Shown in pieces: positions 35,283 to 63,089 of a DNA stretch of 64,000 nucleotides. The stretch lies in contig JAAUZU010000029.1 in the NCBI GenBank assembly GCA_014804445.1, positions 1 to 64,000 on the forward strand. Direction: 5' to 3'. Each line of letters opens with the position of its first letter. Within the stretch, counting starts at the first letter, position 1. The translations under genes were made by a program, and so were the position numbers. The stretch comes from Lachnospiraceae bacterium (GTDB lineage: Bacteria; Bacillota; Clostridia; Lachnospirales; Lachnospiraceae). The notes beneath the pieces were generated by a model, which was given only the letters and a program-made list of their open reading frames with translations, ran no database searches and had not been told where the DNA came from.

Positions 35283-36053
35283 ATGAAAAAAATATACCTA
35301 TTCATTCTTGCCATAACCATCTTATTGGCAGGACTATTTTTCACAACAAAAAAACGGCTGAATAGTAGTGGTTACCAAATAACGGAATCACAGTATACAC
35401 TTGAAAACGGATATTCCTTTGCTGCTATTCAGGTGCGCGGAATGAAAGATTCCGAATTAGAAGAAAGAATAAATGAGAGTTTATGCAGCTGCTTTTTTAT
35501 ATTAGAAAAGCCATGGTTTGTACAATCAAACATAGAAAGTGAAGATCCGGTGGTTCATTGCCGGACAGAACAATATCTGAGTATAGAGTATAGATTCCGG
35601 TATCTGCCGTCGGATACAGTGGAAGGAAATCTTTTCGTTTGTGTTACTGTAGATATGCAGACAGGACAAGTGGTTTTTTTGGATGATCTGATTGAAGTGG
35701 ATGAGGACTTTGCGTTACTTGTGAAAGAAGAAGCAATACTAAATTGTGAAGGAACAATACAGCAAGATTTTACAAAAGAAGAGGCAACAAAATATCTGAA
35801 TGATAATTGGAGTAAGAAAGAAACATCATATATATTACGGTATTTCAGAGGATTTACAAAAGATAAACTATATGGAAAATGGTATTGGGACAATAATTAT
35901 GACTATAAAGCTCTGAATACTGATATCTTTACCACATATTTTTATCTTGAAGAAGGGAGAATTTGCTTTTCCGGAGGAAGTTCGGATCCCGGTTGGATGA
36001 ACTGGATTATGATAGATGATATTGAAAATTATTTGAAAGTTCCTAAATGGTGA
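35283..36053 (+). CDS. Membrane-anchored/secreted hypothetical protein
   Basis: N-terminal hydrophobic segment MKKIYLFILAITILLAGLFF; 256 aa. Confidence 0.65.
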   Translation: MKKIYLFILAITILLAGLFFTTKKRLNSSGYQITESQYTLENGYSFAAIQVRGMKDSELEERINESLCSCFFILEKPWFVQSNIESEDPVVHCRTEQYLSIEYRFRYLPSDTVEGNLFVCVTVDMQTGQVVFLDDLIEVDEDFALLVKEEAILNCEGTIQQDFTKEEATKYLNDNWSKKETSYILRYFRGFTKDKLYGKWYWDNNYDYKALNTDIFTTYFYLEEGRICFSGGSSDPGWMNWIMIDDIENYLKVPKW

Positions 36054-36100
36054 TTTCGCATTTTGGAAAATATTAGAGTAATTCGAGGGATGAAAAATCA

Positions 36101-36984
36101 ATGGGGAAAAATAAACGTATTATAGTAGTTGCATATGTGACATGCTGTGTTGCAATGACGGATGCAGTGGCAATAAGGATAACAACCTGAATGGGTTATG
36201 TAAGATTTCCAAAGAACAAACAGAGGAGCAAAATGCTGAAAATGAGCAAAATGAGGTGAATTCCGAAGAGAGTGAGGATAATGAAACGGCACCGGATGCT
36301 CCAGGAGACATGAATTATCATTATTATTGTTTAGAGGCGGATGATCCGGTTGTGCAGGAACTTATTGCCGATAGCGATTGGGGCTTTACGAGCCGTGTAT
36401 TTATTAAAGGTTTAATAGGTTATACACCCAATAGTGATATATCCGGAATGCTGGAAAGTTATTATAAGGATGATGAAATTATCATAAAAGAAAATCCGGA
36501 GCTATTTCCGTCAGAACGGCTTGCAGAGGTTAAGGAATTTTATTTAAATATCATGATGGATATCATTCGCAAGCGGGGAGAGAATGTTGATGATTATCAG
36601 AAGTATTTTGCAGAAGAGGCTATGTTGGAACAGATAAGAAATTATTTAAAAACGGAGCTGGAGGAAGACTGGTTGCTTCTTGAATCATTTTACCTTTCTG
36701 ATTACGCAGGAAATGCAGAAGAAATTGCATGGTACAGTAACAGTGAAACGATATGGGAGGATGAGGAAAATGGAGTAACCCATAGAAAGACGGAAACGGA
36801 CACTGCATATTGCTTTGAATTCCTGTTTTATGCCGATTATAAGACAATGAATTACGGAGAAAGGGACAAAGCGGCAGCACTTGCCATAAACTGTGAACTC
36901 TCTAAGGAGACCGGACTGATAGAAGAAATCGGAATCAGCAAGTGGTATATTGCCAGAGAAGATTTTGAAACAAGCCGCTGGTAG
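36101..36984 (+). pseudogene. Hypothetical lipoprotein with an apparent N-terminal frameshift near 36160
   Basis: ATG 36101 begins the signal-like MGKNKRIIVVAYVTCCVAMT. A shift is needed to join ..CSGNKDNN.., the frame of the 36142-36984 ORF. Confidence 0.5.
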
Positions 36985-37062
36985 CTTAGCGTGATTCAGC
37001 AGGTGGAATTTCTTGCATAGAATACGAATTGGTAAGAGTGATTACATATTTGAAAGAGGAAA

Positions 37063-37986
37063 GTGAATTTGAGAATTAATCAAAAAAAGGAAAATAGAAA
37101 ATATATATTAATTACAATAATCATTGCTTATACGTTCGTATGCGCATCGTGCGGAAATAAGAAATTTATTTTAGAGACGGATAAGAAAAAAAGTTATATT
37201 TCGGGTAATTGCTCATATGAATCTTGGCTGGATTTTTCAGAAAAATACGATTTGCCATATGCCGGTGAAGAGATTTTTGAAGCAATCAAAACGGCTTACA
37301 AAGAGGTGGATTTTTTAGGGGAGTTTAGAGAAGGAGATTTAGAGACCTATGAAGAATATAAGAGGATATTTTTTGAGTTACTTCAGGGTACCATTCCGGT
37401 AGTTAATAGGCAGACAAATGAAGAAAAATATATGGGAGAATATGAGATTTTTTGGGGTGAATATAATCCCAATCATAATAGCTATTATTTCTTTGATGCA
37501 GACGGAGATGGGTTTCCGGAATTAGGAGTAGAATATAACACACGGAGGTACATTTTTAAGTACGACTTCAAAGAAGAAGAAATTATTTTGTGGTACCCAA
37601 ATGAGAGGGACATCTGGATTGGCACTGGAAAAGTGCAATGGCATGGAAATGATCAATATTTTGGATTTTATCAGTTGAATGAAGATGGAGAGAAAGTGTG
37701 CAGTACATTTCTCTTTAGTTCATGGTACAATGCAGAAACTAGTTTATATATGGTGATGCTGCCAAAGTATGCAGATGCAAATAAAGAAGTAGATATAACG
37801 GAAGAAATGAAAATGACCGGAGTATATGCGCAAATGAGTGAGCAATGGTTCTTCCGAATAACAGAGGAACAATATGAAGAATTAATGGCTCCTTACTGGG
37901 AAGCATATTTCCAAGCCCAAGAAGAAATAAAAAAAGTAACCTATACCTATGAAGAACTGTTCGATGCACTGACAACATCGCAGTAA
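37063..37986 (+). CDS. Putative lipoprotein with a DADGDGFPEL motif
   Basis: Lipobox VCASCGNKK; YYFFDADGDGFPELGVEYN; related in layout to 33827-35191. Confidence 0.7.
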   Translation: MNLRINQKKENRKYILITIIIAYTFVCASCGNKKFILETDKKKSYISGNCSYESWLDFSEKYDLPYAGEEIFEAIKTAYKEVDFLGEFREGDLETYEEYKRIFFELLQGTIPVVNRQTNEEKYMGEYEIFWGEYNPNHNSYYFFDADGDGFPELGVEYNTRRYIFKYDFKEEEIILWYPNERDIWIGTGKVQWHGNDQYFGFYQLNEDGEKVCSTFLFSSWYNAETSLYMVMLPKYADANKEVDITEEMKMTGVYAQMSEQWFFRITEEQYEELMAPYWEAYFQAQEEIKKVTYTYEELFDALTTSQ

Positions 37987-57295: not shown

Positions 57296-57547
57296 ATGAG
57301 AAAAATCAACGACACTGTAAACCGTTTGTTTGTATCTGCCCGTGTAAAAGGAGAAAGGGCAATGCGCCGCATTGGAGGTATACTCCGGAGAAACGAGGGC
57401 GAGGGCTTTGTGGATACTGCTCTGAAGATCCTGATTTCCGTGGTGGTGGGTGCTCTGTTGCTGGCAGGGCTTTATGCGCTGTTTAAGGATACAATTCTGC
57501 CTACGTTGACGCAGAAGGTTACGAATTTGTTTAATTATCAAGGGTAA
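57296..57547 (+). CDS. DUF6133-like single-TM ICE protein
   Basis: NEGEGFVDTALKILISVVVGALLLAGLYALFKDTILPTLTQKVTNLFNY. Confidence 0.75.
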   Translation: MRKINDTVNRLFVSARVKGERAMRRIGGILRRNEGEGFVDTALKILISVVVGALLLAGLYALFKDTILPTLTQKVTNLFNYQG

Positions 57548-57580: not shown

Positions 57581-57623
57581 TGCCCAAGTGACCTCGAACA
57601 AAAATTTTGGTGTCACTTGGGCA
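57581..57623 (+). terminator. Hairpin (terminator/attenuator-like) after the DUF6133 gene
   Basis: 12-bp perfect stem TGCCCAAGTGAC / GTCACTTGGGCA. Confidence 0.55.
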
Positions 57624-57784
57624 AATTGCAAGATGCAAATTGATATAAATATAAGACATAAAAACACATAAAAATAATTGTTCATAAAAAATTTACAAAA
57701 AATTTACAATTTGTTCGTACATGTTCGAGTATGCTTTATGTATAATAACGCATATGGATTAAACATTTAGGAGACAATGGTGTT

Positions 57785-58243
57785 GTGGGGAATAGGAAAA
57801 GTACTTCAGATAATTATAACATGATTTCCAATATTATTCAAATCATTCTAAATTACTTTTTAGTTTATGTTTTGAAACTTGCTGTATTTATATTTATAAA
57901 TTTTACAATTTTTATTAAATGGGAAGGAACGGAAGAAATTCCACAATCTGTATTTATAAGTTGTTTAGCTTTTGTTACTACTGTACTTATTGATGTTTTT
58001 GTTTTATCTAAAAGCGTAAAAGTTAAGGGCATGATTAATGCTATACTTTTAGCGTATGTATTTTTGCTGTTGCTTGGTGATGGTTTTATCTTGTTAATTA
58101 TAGCTAGATTATCACCTGTATCGTTGCTCTCCGTTTGCTTATGCGATTTTATAAATATTTTCTGTTGTGTCAGTCCTGTTTTGGAGTTGATATATGGAGT
58201 TATATCGCATATGCAAGTTGAAAGAACGAGAGAGTATGTCTAA
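57785..58243 (+). CDS. AT-rich cargo: 4-TM hypothetical membrane protein
   Basis: 152 aa, GTG start, hydrophobic segments. Confidence 0.65.
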   Translation: MGNRKSTSDNYNMISNIIQIILNYFLVYVLKLAVFIFINFTIFIKWEGTEEIPQSVFISCLAFVTTVLIDVFVLSKSVKVKGMINAILLAYVFLLLLGDGFILLIIARLSPVSLLSVCLCDFINIFCCVSPVLELIYGVISHMQVERTREYV

Positions 58244-58481
58244 AATATTTAAGCGTGAGGTGATAATGATGATAAAATTAATAATATTTTTGGGTATTGT
58301 ATTTGCAGGAATTGTATCTCTCTTATTGTATTTTGCTATTAGAGAAATGTTTTGTAAGTATCGGAATCCTGATCCTTTATTTTGTAATGGGGATAAAAGG
58401 TTCAAAGAAATTATAGAAAATAAAGATAAAGATTATAAAACTCGTTCTTTTTTAAAGGATATATACTATGACCAAAAGTGA
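58236..58481 (+). CDS. AT-rich cargo: single-TM hypothetical protein
   Basis: ATG overlaps the upstream stop by 8 bp (ATGTCTAA). Confidence 0.6.
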   Translation: MSKIFKREVIMMIKLIIFLGIVFAGIVSLLLYFAIREMFCKYRNPDPLFCNGDKRFKEIIENKDKDYKTRSFLKDIYYDQK

Positions 58482-59025
58482 TTTTGATTTTTTCGTGAAT
58501 AATGTCATTAAAGAGTTTTATGGCGAGATAAAGAAAATAGATGAAGAAAAGTATAGTGGTAAAGTATTAGACTTTAGAGAAAGCAAGCTATATTGTATTT
58601 TCAATTACTACGAGTCATTTAGGAAAGATATGCGAAGATTGTATATGGCAGAAGAGTCTAAACCGATGGATAGGCATAAAATTGCTGCTAATATGATGAT
58701 TGCTATATTAAAGGCTCGCCCAATTAAAATCAATTTAATGATTCCTAATCTTCCTTTGGAGTTATTGTTAGCTAATGAATATCTAAGTTTTTGTTGTGCG
58801 CTTGATATTGTAGAAATATATAGGAGAGATGCAGGGAACGAGAAATTTTCATTAATTTTACCAGGAACCTATATTGAAGAGGAAGATGATAGAACGTCGT
58901 ATATACAAAACATATGTAAAGCTTTGTATTATATTCATAAACCATCATTGAGTGATACATTGGCGTATGCAAATATTTTGTTCATGATTGAAAAATATAC
59001 AGATACAATATATGCAAATGAATAA
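58468..59025 (+). CDS. AT-rich cargo: soluble hypothetical protein
   Basis: 185 aa; ATG overlaps the upstream stop by 14 bp. Confidence 0.7.
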   Translation: MTKSDFDFFVNNVIKEFYGEIKKIDEEKYSGKVLDFRESKLYCIFNYYESFRKDMRRLYMAEESKPMDRHKIAANMMIAILKARPIKINLMIPNLPLELLLANEYLSFCCALDIVEIYRRDAGNEKFSLILPGTYIEEEDDRTSYIQNICKALYYIHKPSLSDTLAYANILFMIEKYTDTIYANE

Positions 59026-59063
59026 AAGTTTTGCAAGAAGAAAGAGAATGAAAAAAGTCAATA

Positions 59064-59096
59064 AAAGCCCGAGGCAATTGTCTCGGACTTTTTTAT
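59064..59096 (+). terminator. Rho-independent terminator of the cargo operon
   Basis: CCGAGgcaattgtCTCGG followed by ACTTTTTTATT. Confidence 0.8.
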
Positions 59097-59279
59097 TGCA
59101 GGGCAATCTTTAATAAACCATCTGCTATGCAGGTGGGATAACAGCACTTTACCTTACAGTAAAAAACCTCTGTGATTTTCCAAGAGGGTAGTGGTAACAT
59201 GAATTATTTATTGTATCAACTTGATTTTTGGCATTATATAAAGGAAAATATTGACAATCTGATGAAGGAGGTGATTTGA

Positions 59280-59558
59280 TTGAAAGTAACAGCAAAAATC
59301 ACAAAGCACTTCACCGAAGCGGGTAAGCTGAGAGCATTTGCCACTATATGTCTGGCAGATGCTTTTTTAATTACCGGGGTACGTGTGGTGGAGTGCGAGA
59401 AGGGGATGACCGTGTTCATGCCCAGCATGAAAGACAAGGAAGATGAGTACAGGGATGTATGTTTTCCTATCAAGCCGGAGCTTCGCAGCCAGATTAACAC
59501 GGCTGTACTGAACGCTTATGACGCTGGTATGAAAGAAAACGAATCAGAAGAGGGGTAG
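59280..59558 (+). CDS. SpoVG family protein (ICE-encoded)
   Basis: KITKHFTEAGKLRAFATICLADAFLITGVRVVECEKGMTVFMPSMKDKEDEYRDVCFPIKPELRSQINTAVLNAY follows the SpoVG pattern; TTG start. Confidence 0.8.
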   Translation: MKVTAKITKHFTEAGKLRAFATICLADAFLITGVRVVECEKGMTVFMPSMKDKEDEYRDVCFPIKPELRSQINTAVLNAYDAGMKENESEEG

Positions 59559-59593: not shown

Positions 59594-60436
59594 TTGGAAG
59601 TGATATTGGTGCTGCTGATCTTGGCACTATTGAACGGGGCAATCGCTTTCATTGACGAGATGCTTCAGGAACTGGTTTCCATGACGCTGTACGCAGACCG
59701 CTACATGCTTTCAGCCGGAGGGAACAGCATGGTGGGTACCTTGTTTGACATCATGTTAGGATTTGGGGTATCTCTGATAATCCTAAAGTTTCTAAAGAAA
59801 GGTTTTGCATGCTATGTCATGTGGACGGAAGGCGATCCGGACACGGAACCATCAGGGCTGGTGCTGCGCTTTGTCGAGGCAGTAGTGGTGGCGGTATGTT
59901 TCCCCACCCTGTACCGATGGCTGGCAGAAGTGACAGAGGAGATTATTGACCAACTCATGGCTGCTATAGGGGTATCTACAAACTATGACTGGCAGGCATG
60001 GGTTAATGGCATTTCCTCGCTGGGACTGGTAACTGCCATATTCGGTCTGGTGTTTATCATCTGTTATTTCATGTTGTATTTCCAGTTTCTGATGAGGGGG
60101 TTGGAGATTACCATTTTGCGGATCGGGCTGCCCATGGCATGTGTAGGGCTTCTGGATAATGACAAGGGAGTATTCAAGGCGTATATGAACAAGTTTTTTC
60201 AGAGCACCTTTGCGGTTGTGATACAGATATGCCTGTGCAAGCTGGGAGTAGGAATGATGCTGAATATAGGGTTCAACATGAACATGTTCTGGGGAGTTGC
60301 CTGTATAGTGCTTGCGATCAAGACGCCAGCGTTTTTGAGGGACTTTTTGGTTCCCACGGGAGGCGGTGGCGGAGCCATCAACAACATCTACCATTCTGTG
60401 CGTTTAGTTGGAATGGCTAAAAGTATGGCGAAATAA
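59594..60436 (+). CDS. VirB6/TrbL-like conjugal transfer membrane protein
   Basis: 280 aa polytopic; conserved ICE position; VPTGGGGGAINNIYHSVRL C-terminus. Confidence 0.8.
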   Translation: MEVILVLLILALLNGAIAFIDEMLQELVSMTLYADRYMLSAGGNSMVGTLFDIMLGFGVSLIILKFLKKGFACYVMWTEGDPDTEPSGLVLRFVEAVVVAVCFPTLYRWLAEVTEEIIDQLMAAIGVSTNYDWQAWVNGISSLGLVTAIFGLVFIICYFMLYFQFLMRGLEITILRIGLPMACVGLLDNDKGVFKAYMNKFFQSTFAVVIQICLCKLGVGMMLNIGFNMNMFWGVACIVLAIKTPAFLRDFLVPTGGGGGAINNIYHSVRLVGMAKSMAK

Positions 60437-60701: not shown

Positions 60702-61010
60702 ATGGCGCTTTATATCCCCAGCGGGATAAAAGCGGAAAATGAATTATTTAATGGTTTTGGAAAAAGAGAGCTGATGCAAAGTGCAGTAGGTTCTCTGATT
60801 GGAGGTGCCGTTGCTGCCGTGATCTGGCTGTGTTCAGGGAATGTGGCGTTCACGGTGGTTGCAGTGCTTGCCAGCATTTTTGGTTCAGTGATGATGTGTA
60901 CAAAAGATCAGAACAACCAAAGTGTGGTGGATCAGATAAGCAGCATGGTGAGGTTCGCCAGAAGCCAGCAGATATACCCCTACCGGGCGATGAGCGAGTG
61001 GGGAGAGTAG
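60702..61010 (+). CDS. PrgI/VirB3-like protein
   Basis: YIPSGIKAENELFNGFGKRELMQSAVGSLIGGAVAAVIW, two TMs, synteny. Confidence 0.7.
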   Translation: MALYIPSGIKAENELFNGFGKRELMQSAVGSLIGGAVAAVIWLCSGNVAFTVVAVLASIFGSVMMCTKDQNNQSVVDQISSMVRFARSQQIYPYRAMSEWGE

Positions 61011-61027
61011 GATGCAGTCATAAATAC

Positions 61028-62506
61028 GTGGATTTTGGAAGCAAGTCTAAGGCCAGGCGAAAGGATTTCGTAATTACCTCTCATATCAAACCGGAGGATG
61101 GTTTGGAATTTTTAGATTTATTTTCAGGAATAGGCGGCTTCAGGAGGGGACTGGAACGGAGTGGCCATAAGTGCATCGGGCATGTGGAAATTGATAAATA
61201 TGCAAATATCAGCTACATGGCGATGTACGGTCTCTCATACTGTCAAAATGGTAAAGATGCCGGGGATGGCAATAGCTGCAGAATATACAGGACAAAGGAG
61301 GGAGAATATTATGGCGGAGCAAAAGAGAAGGGCGAGATATCAAGCGAATGGTTCGCAAAAGACATTAAACTGCTTACAGCAGGAGAAATACCAAAAGCTG
61401 AAATCTGGACTTTCGGATTTCCTTGTCAGGACATCTCCCTCTCAGGAAAACGGGTTGGACTTACCGGAAAACGAAGTGGATTATTTTTTACGGTTATTGG
61501 CCTGCTCAAAGGCACAGCACCCGAAAATAAACCCCGAATCCTTATCATTGAGAACGTTAAGCATCTTTTGTCAAGCGGCAGCGGAAGGGATTTTACCACC
61601 GTTCTCCTTAACTTATGGGAAGCTGGGTATGATGCAGAATGGCAGTGTGTCAATTCAAAAAATTTCGGAGTGCCGCAGAACAGGGAACGAGTGTACATTG
61701 TTGGATATCTTGGAGGAAGACGTGGACGAAAAGTATTTCCTCTCGGCGGAGCAAACGGAGCGGATGTTGAAGAAATTATAGGGGGAAATCAGGGGGAAAG
61801 GGTTTATTCTTCCCATGGGCTGTCTGTCACGCTGACGGCACAGGGAGGTGGCGCTGGGGGAAAGACCGGCCTGTATTTATGTGACACGAAAGACACTGAG
61901 AAATGGATGAACTGCCTGAAAGAGCAGGAAGCAGAAGGATGTGGTGCAAGACCGTATGGGGATAGTTCCGGTGTACTGACTTGCAGGGCTTGTGGCAGGG
62001 AGTGTGTGCAGGCACAGGCAGCGCTGACTCCAGAGAGGGAGAATAAGCGGCAGGGCGGAAGAAGGTTTAAGGAGCCGGGGGAACCGAGCTTTACCCTGAC
62101 TGCCATGGATCGTCATGGAGTAATGTTGACACAATGTCCCTGCCATTTGGGGCTGCCCGTAAGGGATGCGTCAAAGCAGGGCTATGTGCTGGCAAGACAT
62201 GGGGACTGCATCAACCTGATTTACCCAAACAGCACAGTCCGTAAAGGGCGGGTAGGCAGACAGTGTTCCCATACCCTGCTTACGGACGGATGCATGGGTG
62301 TGATGGTTTATTGCCGGATCAGGCGGCTTACGCCCAGAGAATGTTTCCGTCTGCAGGCATTTGAGGATTTCCTGTTTGACAGGGCAAGAGCGGCAGGCGT
62401 CAGCGATGCCCAGCTTTACCGACAGGCGGGGAACTCCGTGACGGTGAATATTGTGTATGAGATTGGGAAAAGGCTTGCGGAAATGGAGGAAAAAGGTGCG
62501 ATTTAA
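61028..62506 (+). CDS. DNA (cytosine-5)-methyltransferase (ICE)
   Basis: FLDLFSGIGGFRRGLERSGHKCIGHVEIDKYA; FGFPCQDISLSGKR; IIENVKHLL; NFGVPQNRERVYIVGYLGG; QAGNSVTVNIV. Start uncertain (GTG 61028 suggested). Confidence 0.92.
   Translation: MDFGSKSKARRKDFVITSHIKPEDGLEFLDLFSGIGGFRRGLERSGHKCIGHVEIDKYANISYMAMYGLSYCQNGKDAGDGNSCRIYRTKEGEYYGGAKEKGEISSEWFAKDIKLLTAGEIPKAEIWTFGFPCQDISLSGKRVGLTGKRSGLFFTVIGLLKGTAPENKPRILIIENVKHLLSSGSGRDFTTVLLNLWEAGYDAEWQCVNSKNFGVPQNRERVYIVGYLGGRRGRKVFPLGGANGADVEEIIGGNQGERVYSSHGLSVTLTAQGGGAGGKTGLYLCDTKDTEKWMNCLKEQEAEGCGARPYGDSSGVLTCRACGRECVQAQAALTPERENKRQGGRRFKEPGEPSFTLTAMDRHGVMLTQCPCHLGLPVRDASKQGYVLARHGDCINLIYPNSTVRKGRVGRQCSHTLLTDGCMGVMVYCRIRRLTPRECFRLQAFEDFLFDRARAAGVSDAQLYRQAGNSVTVNIVYEIGKRLAEMEEKGAI
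61311..61781 (+). CDS. Overprinted +1-frame ORF within the C5 methyltransferase gene (candidate)
   Basis: AAAGGAGGGagaatattATG at 61311; 156 aa with no stops, ending ..CTLLDILEEDVDEKYFLSAEQTERMLKKL. Confidence 0.4.
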   Translation: MAEQKRRARYQANGSQKTLNCLQQEKYQKLKSGLSDFLVRTSPSQENGLDLPENEVDYFLRLLACSKAQHPKINPESLSLRTLSIFCQAAAEGILPPFSLTYGKLGMMQNGSVSIQKISECRRTGNECTLLDILEEDVDEKYFLSAEQTERMLKKL

Positions 62507-63089
62507 CATTCTTTATGTGGACCCGCCTTGGCAGTATGAGCAGAACCGCCTTTCGGGGGTAGCGGAGAAACATTATAGGACATTGACAGATGAGGAAATA
62601 TATAGGCTGCCGGTGGGGGATATTGCGGCGGATAACTGTATCCTGTTCTTGTGGGTTACCGGTCCGAAGCTGCCGGAGGCACTTACGGCGATCAAAAGCT
62701 GGGGATTTGATTACAGGACAGTGGGATTTGTCTGGGCAAAACAGAACAGGAAGTCCCCCACATGGTTTTTCGGATTGGGATTCTGGACAAGGGGCAGTAC
62801 GGAGGCATGTCTGCTTGCGGTAAAAGGAAAGCCGAGACGGATATCGGCAAGCGTCAGCCAGCTGGTGGTCAGTCCACTGGAGGAGCACAGCAAGAAACCC
62901 GACATTGTGCGGGACAGGATTGTGGAGTTGATAGGGGATCTGCCGAGGGCAGAGCTGTTTGCCCGAAGGAAATATCAGGGATGGATTTGCGTTGGTGACG
63001 AGGTGGATGGCATGGATATCCGGGACAGCATTGCCAGACTGAAAGAGATGCAGGAGGAAGAAGATGGCAGGGAACCTTGCACTTCTTAA
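62496..63089 (+). CDS. MT-A70 family adenine methyltransferase
   Basis: YVDPPWQYEQ (DPPW motif); FLWVTGPKLPEALTAIKSWGFDYRTVGFVWAKQN; GTG start overlapping the C5-MTase stop. Confidence 0.9.
   Translation: MRFNILYVDPPWQYEQNRLSGVAEKHYRTLTDEEIYRLPVGDIAADNCILFLWVTGPKLPEALTAIKSWGFDYRTVGFVWAKQNRKSPTWFFGLGFWTRGSTEACLLAVKGKPRRISASVSQLVVSPLEEHSKKPDIVRDRIVELIGDLPRAELFARRKYQGWICVGDEVDGMDIRDSIARLKEMQEEEDGREPCTS

Follow-up and report, generated by a model that had tools for sequence, protein, structure and literature searches.

The toxin-antitoxin-chaperone (TAC) systems described so far include CmdTAC (PD-T4-9), an experimentally proven anti-phage system (PMC9519451, PMC11618068). In CmdTAC, a capsid protein draws the chaperone off the antitoxin, which is then degraded (PMC11618068). 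The classical modules, TAC of Mycobacterium tuberculosis and MqsRAC, combine ribonuclease-type toxins with SecB-like chaperones (PMC5105189, PMC9098466, PMC9519451), and TAC antitoxins carry chaperone-addiction tails (PMC9519451). Here, we analyze a three-gene cassette found in a 64,000-nucleotide stretch of DNA (the window; positions 1 to 64,000 of contig JAAUZU010000029.1, assembly GCA_014804445.1) from a Lachnospiraceae bacterium. The cassette codes for a four-helix membrane protein with four transmembrane (TM) segments (gene 1, 4TM), a small protein with one TM helix (gene 2), and a 185-aa soluble helical protein (gene 3) of a family that we call DRHK. We propose that the block is a module working like a TAC system, with a membrane toxin and a third component that is not SecB, and we put the probability of this at roughly one in two.

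The cassette resembles CmdTAC in having three adjacent genes for a toxin, a small partner, and a third protein, a likeness of order in which the functions of our genes are proposed ones. In both, the small partner has a distinctive C-terminal tail, and two relatives of the cassette (L063 and L064) carry a first gene homologous to CmdT. The differences from CmdTAC are that gene 1 is a four-helix membrane protein with neither an ADP-ribosyltransferase (ART) domain nor a PADLOC match, that the third protein is helical rather than SecB-like and has no Pfam or NCBIfam match, and that the tail motif and C terminus are of another kind. Lacking both an ART and a SecB-like protein, the window module falls outside CmdTAC, although it may work in a similar way. 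With the classical modules, our proposal shares an antitoxin that depends on the third protein through its C-terminal tail, whereas ribonuclease-type toxin and SecB-like domains were undetected in the cassette. We found no description of a module of this kind in the open-licence full-text literature, which is weak evidence of novelty.

An AT-rich cassette inserted into a conjugation operon

The block at 57785-59025 consists of three co-directional genes with a G+C (GC) content of 28.6%, compared to approximately 49% in the flanks. Segments of equal length taken between 39 and 64 kb had a mean GC fraction of 0.49 and a minimum of 0.434, and the cassette (0.286) lies below all 2980 other equal-length segments of the 64 kb. 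GC at third codon positions is 0.24-0.28 in the cassette and 0.52-0.60 in neighboring genes. In 1000 Markov shuffles of this region, the longest open reading frame (ORF) reached 140 aa, short of the 152 aa of gene 1. An earlier sequence-only reading had described an AT-rich three-gene operon with a 4-TM, 1-TM, and soluble 185-aa layout, closed by a terminator; the ORFs, the GC statistics, and the counts of hydrophobic helices (four, one, and zero) agree with it, and the terminator is present. The 14-bp overlap that it gave for genes 2 and 3 is likewise correct. Its 8-bp overlap between genes 1 and 2 depends on the start of gene 2: it is right for ATG 58236 but not for ATG 58266, where the Shine-Dalgarno sequence is better (GAGGTGAT) and a 22-bp gap separates the two genes; the three candidate starts (58194, 58236, and 58266) share a common end at 58481. 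A promoter scan at the cassette gave no excess over shuffles. As had been supposed, the proteins belong to no recognized family: Pfam, NCBIfam, and PADLOC gave no meaningful match, and no PHROGs match was stronger than E = 0.03. In Rfam, the block has no significant match; rli42 (E = 0.036) falls far short of the threshold.

The cassette is an insertion into the transfer region of a MobL/VirD4(CD1115)/TrbL-type conjugation operon, part of a type IV secretion system (T4SS). In the window, 1732 bp separate the DUF6133 gene from the SpoVG-like gene. In the closest syntenic elements, which bear out the insertion proposed earlier, the spacing is 164 bp (G433, whose TrbL and SpoVG-like proteins are 80% and 87% identical to those of the window), approximately 64 bp (G445), and approximately 22 bp (G046), all without the cassette; it is likewise absent from more distant syntenic relatives. 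The DUF6133 gene adjoins the SpoVG-like and TrbL genes in cassette-less relatives too. At the same site, between pilin and SpoVG-like genes, another element carries an AT-rich S-adenosylmethionine-dependent methyltransferase gene (PF13649; L018:381-1136), which indicates that the spot takes cargo. The 12-bp hairpin noted earlier in front of the block is a real structure (arms at 57581-57592 and 57612-57623), but it does not mark a cargo border: hairpins of different sequence follow the same gene in the cassette-less L010 and L013, so it is a feature of the conjugation operon. No meaningful junction came out of an automatic alignment with the empty site; we therefore do not claim exact insertion points. 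Blastn of the cassette flanks found no terminal repeat common to the family.

A constant third protein with exchangeable partners

Among 39 divergent aligned members of the gene 3 family, D68, R69, H70, K71, and P132 are invariant, and Y48, N103, and E175 are nearly so. AlphaFold predicts a mostly helical domain (mean pLDDT [predicted local distance difference test] 93.6, predicted template modelling score 0.89), and a Foldseek search with this model found no relative in the PDB or among predicted viral structures. Matches to all-helical dUTPase and HD-domain proteins were weak (E > 2) and were rejected. On this basis, the DRHK protein is a new family, likely with a new fold. Single-sequence searches with the 185-aa protein found nothing in plasmids, phages, viral contigs, or 85k genomes; only a family-level search of genomes revealed relatives. 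At the level of Lachnospiraceae, 8 of 397 genomes were positive, and a profile search at the order level gave 13 of 392, while 300 genomes from across the phylum gave none besides the window's own. When 85,462 genomes were searched with a pattern built on a five-row alignment (sixteen- and six-row alignments were too divergent), 40 DRHK loci were found, mostly in Clostridia. Matches in metagenome-assembled genomes (MAGs) came from Spirochaetes, Fibrobacterota, Actinobacteria, and Dehalococcoidia of the Chloroflexi, assignments that may include contamination. A viral contig (IMG/VR) codes for a DRHK protein and its 59-aa motif partner, near an XRE-like regulator (L033:5932-6540).

We examined 58 loci, four of which were seen twice, leaving 54 distinct DRHK loci. 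Approximately 36 of these have an intact gene with at least three hydrophobic helices two genes upstream of the DRHK gene and a small protein between them; similar four-helix proteins thus occupy the gene 1 position. The remaining loci comprise three with a broken 4TM gene, one fusion, three with an ART, ten with a small protein and DRHK, and one fragment. L054 had been scored as 4TM by the script and was reassigned by hand, its upstream gene being a host transporter. In the fusion (L055), the 4TM region and DRHK form a single natural ORF of 433 aa. In L039, L045, and L062, the 4TM gene is broken and DRHK is kept, although these frameshifts may be MAG errors. The relatives have unrelated surroundings; most of those examined stand by themselves among chromosomal genes, without adjoining transfer genes, and the nearest DRHK relative (55% identical, same genus) also has an unrelated context. 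From reading, we take neighbors of the relatives to include elongation factor Tu, polynucleotide phosphorylase, a MATE transporter, and a histidine kinase. The cassette is a self-contained, horizontally spread module.

AlphaFold places the helices of gene 1 at residues 6-46, 54-77, 83-106, and 114-151, and Foldseek returned nothing below E = 0.2 for either the gene 1 or the gene 3 model. In some relatives, a conserved noncoding leader of approximately 200 bp stands upstream of the 4TM gene (L038:2990-3270, L039:5065-5300, L040:5020-5260, L045:5010-5260, L066:5099-5344, and L042:75-304). It contains two pairs of promoter-like -35/-10 elements, with a Spo0A-box-like TTGTCGAA in the first pair, and then a structured part of approximately 115 nt with a terminator at its end. 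The leader of L066 is 71-78% identical to the others, while the DRHK proteins are only 27-29% identical. It occurs in one copy per genome, is not found in the window, and has no Rfam match.

In three loci (L063, L064, and L059), the gene 1 slot is occupied by an ART. In L063 and L064, the first gene matches the PADLOC model PD-T4-9_A (CmdT; E 1.6e-5 and 8e-4, respectively) and, weakly, the Pfam PARP catalytic domain; these ART/DRHK operons (L063:1033-2464 and L064:5188-6651) come from Dehalococcoidia and Spirochaetia assemblies. The ART of L059 is the weakest of the three, aligning with those of L063 and L064 and falling below the PADLOC CmdT model. Eight ART genes came out of a search of the phylum for the CmdT-like family; most stand ahead of a small gene and a gene for a protein of approximately 145 aa, which from reading we take to be SecB-like. 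One of these is an ordinary ART/antitoxin/SecB-like triplet (L101), whose ART is 31% identical to that of L063 over 162 aa, its whole length. Given the homology of the L063 and L064 ARTs and the layout of these neighborhoods, L063 and L064 have the gene order of CmdTAC, with DRHK in the slot of the SecB-like chaperone. The three ART loci fall within a clade of 4TM loci in the DRHK tree (98% support in the Shimodaira-Hasegawa approximate likelihood ratio test, SH-aLRT), which indicates that the effector was exchanged and DRHK retained.

The middle proteins combine a variable N-terminal part, which may be a membrane helix, soluble, or an ART partner, with a recurrent C-terminal motif (N-G-D-K-R-F-K-E in the window). 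N-x-[DE]-x-x-[ILVF] is present in 40 of 50 middle proteins, against 8.7 in shuffles (maximum 17), and the strict form N-x-[DE]-x-x-[ILVF]-x-[DE] in 25 of 50, against 1.2 (maximum 6); these counts are inflated by close relatives, because the shuffles keep shared ancestry in place. The motif mostly lies 20-35 residues before the end of the protein. Such a conserved tail attached to a variable body would be expected of a partner-binding motif, comparable to the tails of TAC antitoxins. In nearly all small partners of the CmdT-like ARTs of Firmicutes (L096-L103), the last residues are ...AA, ...VA, or similar, ends that recall the ClpXP degron of CmdA and that are missing from DRHK-type middle proteins.

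Proposed toxin control and the competing explanations

The recurrence of the cassette in unrelated genomes, together with the ART swap at gene 1, suggests that it is probably a toxin-control system, likely one directed against phages. Under our proposal, gene 1 would be a toxin acting on the cell membrane, and gene 2 would be a small membrane-anchored antitoxin or adaptor that restrains it. Gene 3 would be a helical chaperone or sensor that keeps gene 2 active by holding its tail motif, N-x-[DE]-x-x-[ILVF]-x-[DE]. A phage product might capture or displace gene 3, upon which gene 2 would fail, gene 1 would be freed, and the infected cell would stop or die. The sequence-only reading had suggested exclusion, immunity, or anti-phage cargo; the CmdT-like effector swap makes anti-phage or toxin-immunity cargo more likely. 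Its division into membrane proteins plus a soluble effector is probably wrong, since gene 1 is the swapped and likely toxic part and the 185-aa soluble protein the constant one.

Several observations weigh against this proposal. In ten loci, no effector was found beside the small motif protein and DRHK, and the core may therefore consist of two genes. A toxin fused to the chaperone of its own antitoxin, as in L055, would be unusual. DRHK is not SecB-like, its confident model has no PDB match, and four strictly invariant polar residues might indicate an enzyme. Gene 2 has no ...AA-like C terminus of the SecB-type antitoxins, and the N-terminal parts of the ART-associated middle proteins show no significant homology to CmdA-like antitoxins. 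Given the two-gene loci and the L055 fusion, DRHK could also be an enzyme or a direct sensor.

A direct sensor is the premise of the alternative that survives best, although we consider it unlikely: DRHK would sense infection and open or activate the membrane effector, gene 2 would serve as a scaffold, and there would be no antitoxin or chaperone logic. The 4TM-DRHK fusion and the pairing of a constant DRHK with interchangeable effectors are consistent with such a system. However, the ART variants match CmdTAC in gene order and slots, and in that system the roles of toxin, antitoxin, and chaperone are proven; gene 2 is also kept almost everywhere. Also improbable, and slightly more so, is that DRHK itself is the active enzyme or toxin, with the small motif protein as its antitoxin and the 4TM protein and ART as accessories. 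The ten loci with these two proteins alone and the invariance of D68, R69, H70, K71, and P132 argue for this, but no relation of fold or sequence to any enzyme was found, the ART partner would plausibly suffice as a toxin by itself, and the loss of 4TM with retention of DRHK, where not a MAG frameshift error, fits a costly gene 1.

A role in entry or surface exclusion, or as a conjugation accessory of the element, is very improbable. The cassette does lie inside a T4SS operon and encodes membrane proteins, but it is missing from the nearest syntenic elements, and the absence of adjoining transfer genes at most relatives examined leaves such a role unsupported. Four-helix membrane effectors occur in cyclic oligonucleotide-based (CBASS) and pyrimidine cyclase (Pycsar) anti-phage signaling systems, where, as here, a small membrane protein stands beside a soluble one, but a nucleotide-signaling defense of this type is the least probable explanation, with no cyclase gene recognized in the window operon or beside relatives, no PADLOC match to the window genes, and an all-helical DRHK unlike nucleotidyltransferases.

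Locus features and significance

The cassette features and the flanking backbone are collected in Table 1. The SpoVG-like gene is a member of the transfer operon and is kept in the closest relatives. Downstream, still within the transfer operon, the window codes for a C5-cytosine DNA methyltransferase (PF00145) and an MT-A70 methyltransferase (PF05063) at 60830-63089. A second AT-rich stretch (35-38% GC) at 35283-37986 contains three lipoprotein-like ORFs, one of which (36142-36984) has no Pfam match.

Table 1. Positions of the cassette and its flanking features in the window.
Feature	Position	Strand	Remarks
DUF6133 gene of T4SS operon (left-flank backbone)	57296..57547	+	PF19629, E=2e-27
12-bp stem hairpin after DUF6133 (backbone)	57581..57623	+	-29 kcal/mol, z = -5.2
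Candidate cassette-promoter -10 box, TATAAT	57741..57746	+	direct reading
Gene 1, four-helix membrane protein, 152 aa	57785..58243	+	GTG start, AGGAGA upstream
Gene 2, small one-TM protein	58236..58481 (alternative start 58266)	+	one hydrophobic helix
Gene 3, 185-aa soluble helical DRHK-family protein	58468..59025	+	
Cassette intrinsic terminator	59069..59095	+	stem 59069-59086, then T run
SpoVG-like gene (right-flank backbone)	59280..59558	+	PF04026, E=1e-23
TrbL_4 conjugal transfer protein (right-flank backbone)	59594..60436	+	PF19597, E=3e-115

We tentatively suggest, at somewhat less than even odds, that the cassette represents an undescribed, widespread class of immune module, in which a new-fold DRHK chaperone or sensor unrelated to SecB would control interchangeable toxins (a four-helix membrane protein or an RNA-targeting ART) through a motif in the antitoxin tail. 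If gene 3 proves to be the control element, the module would form a separate class with a new fold. TAC systems have been described with a SecB-related chaperone (PMC11618068), and a structurally unrelated third component, found with a membrane protein as well as with a CmdT-like toxin, would contrast with these. If our proposal is correct, chaperone-type toxin control had more than one origin or was re-plugged, and TAC-like systems gain a membrane-acting branch. Few defense systems of gut Clostridia have been tested so far, and the cassette provides, from these dominant gut bacteria, a new protein family, likely a new fold, and a clear candidate recognition motif, together with a DRHK profile that can be used to find further members.
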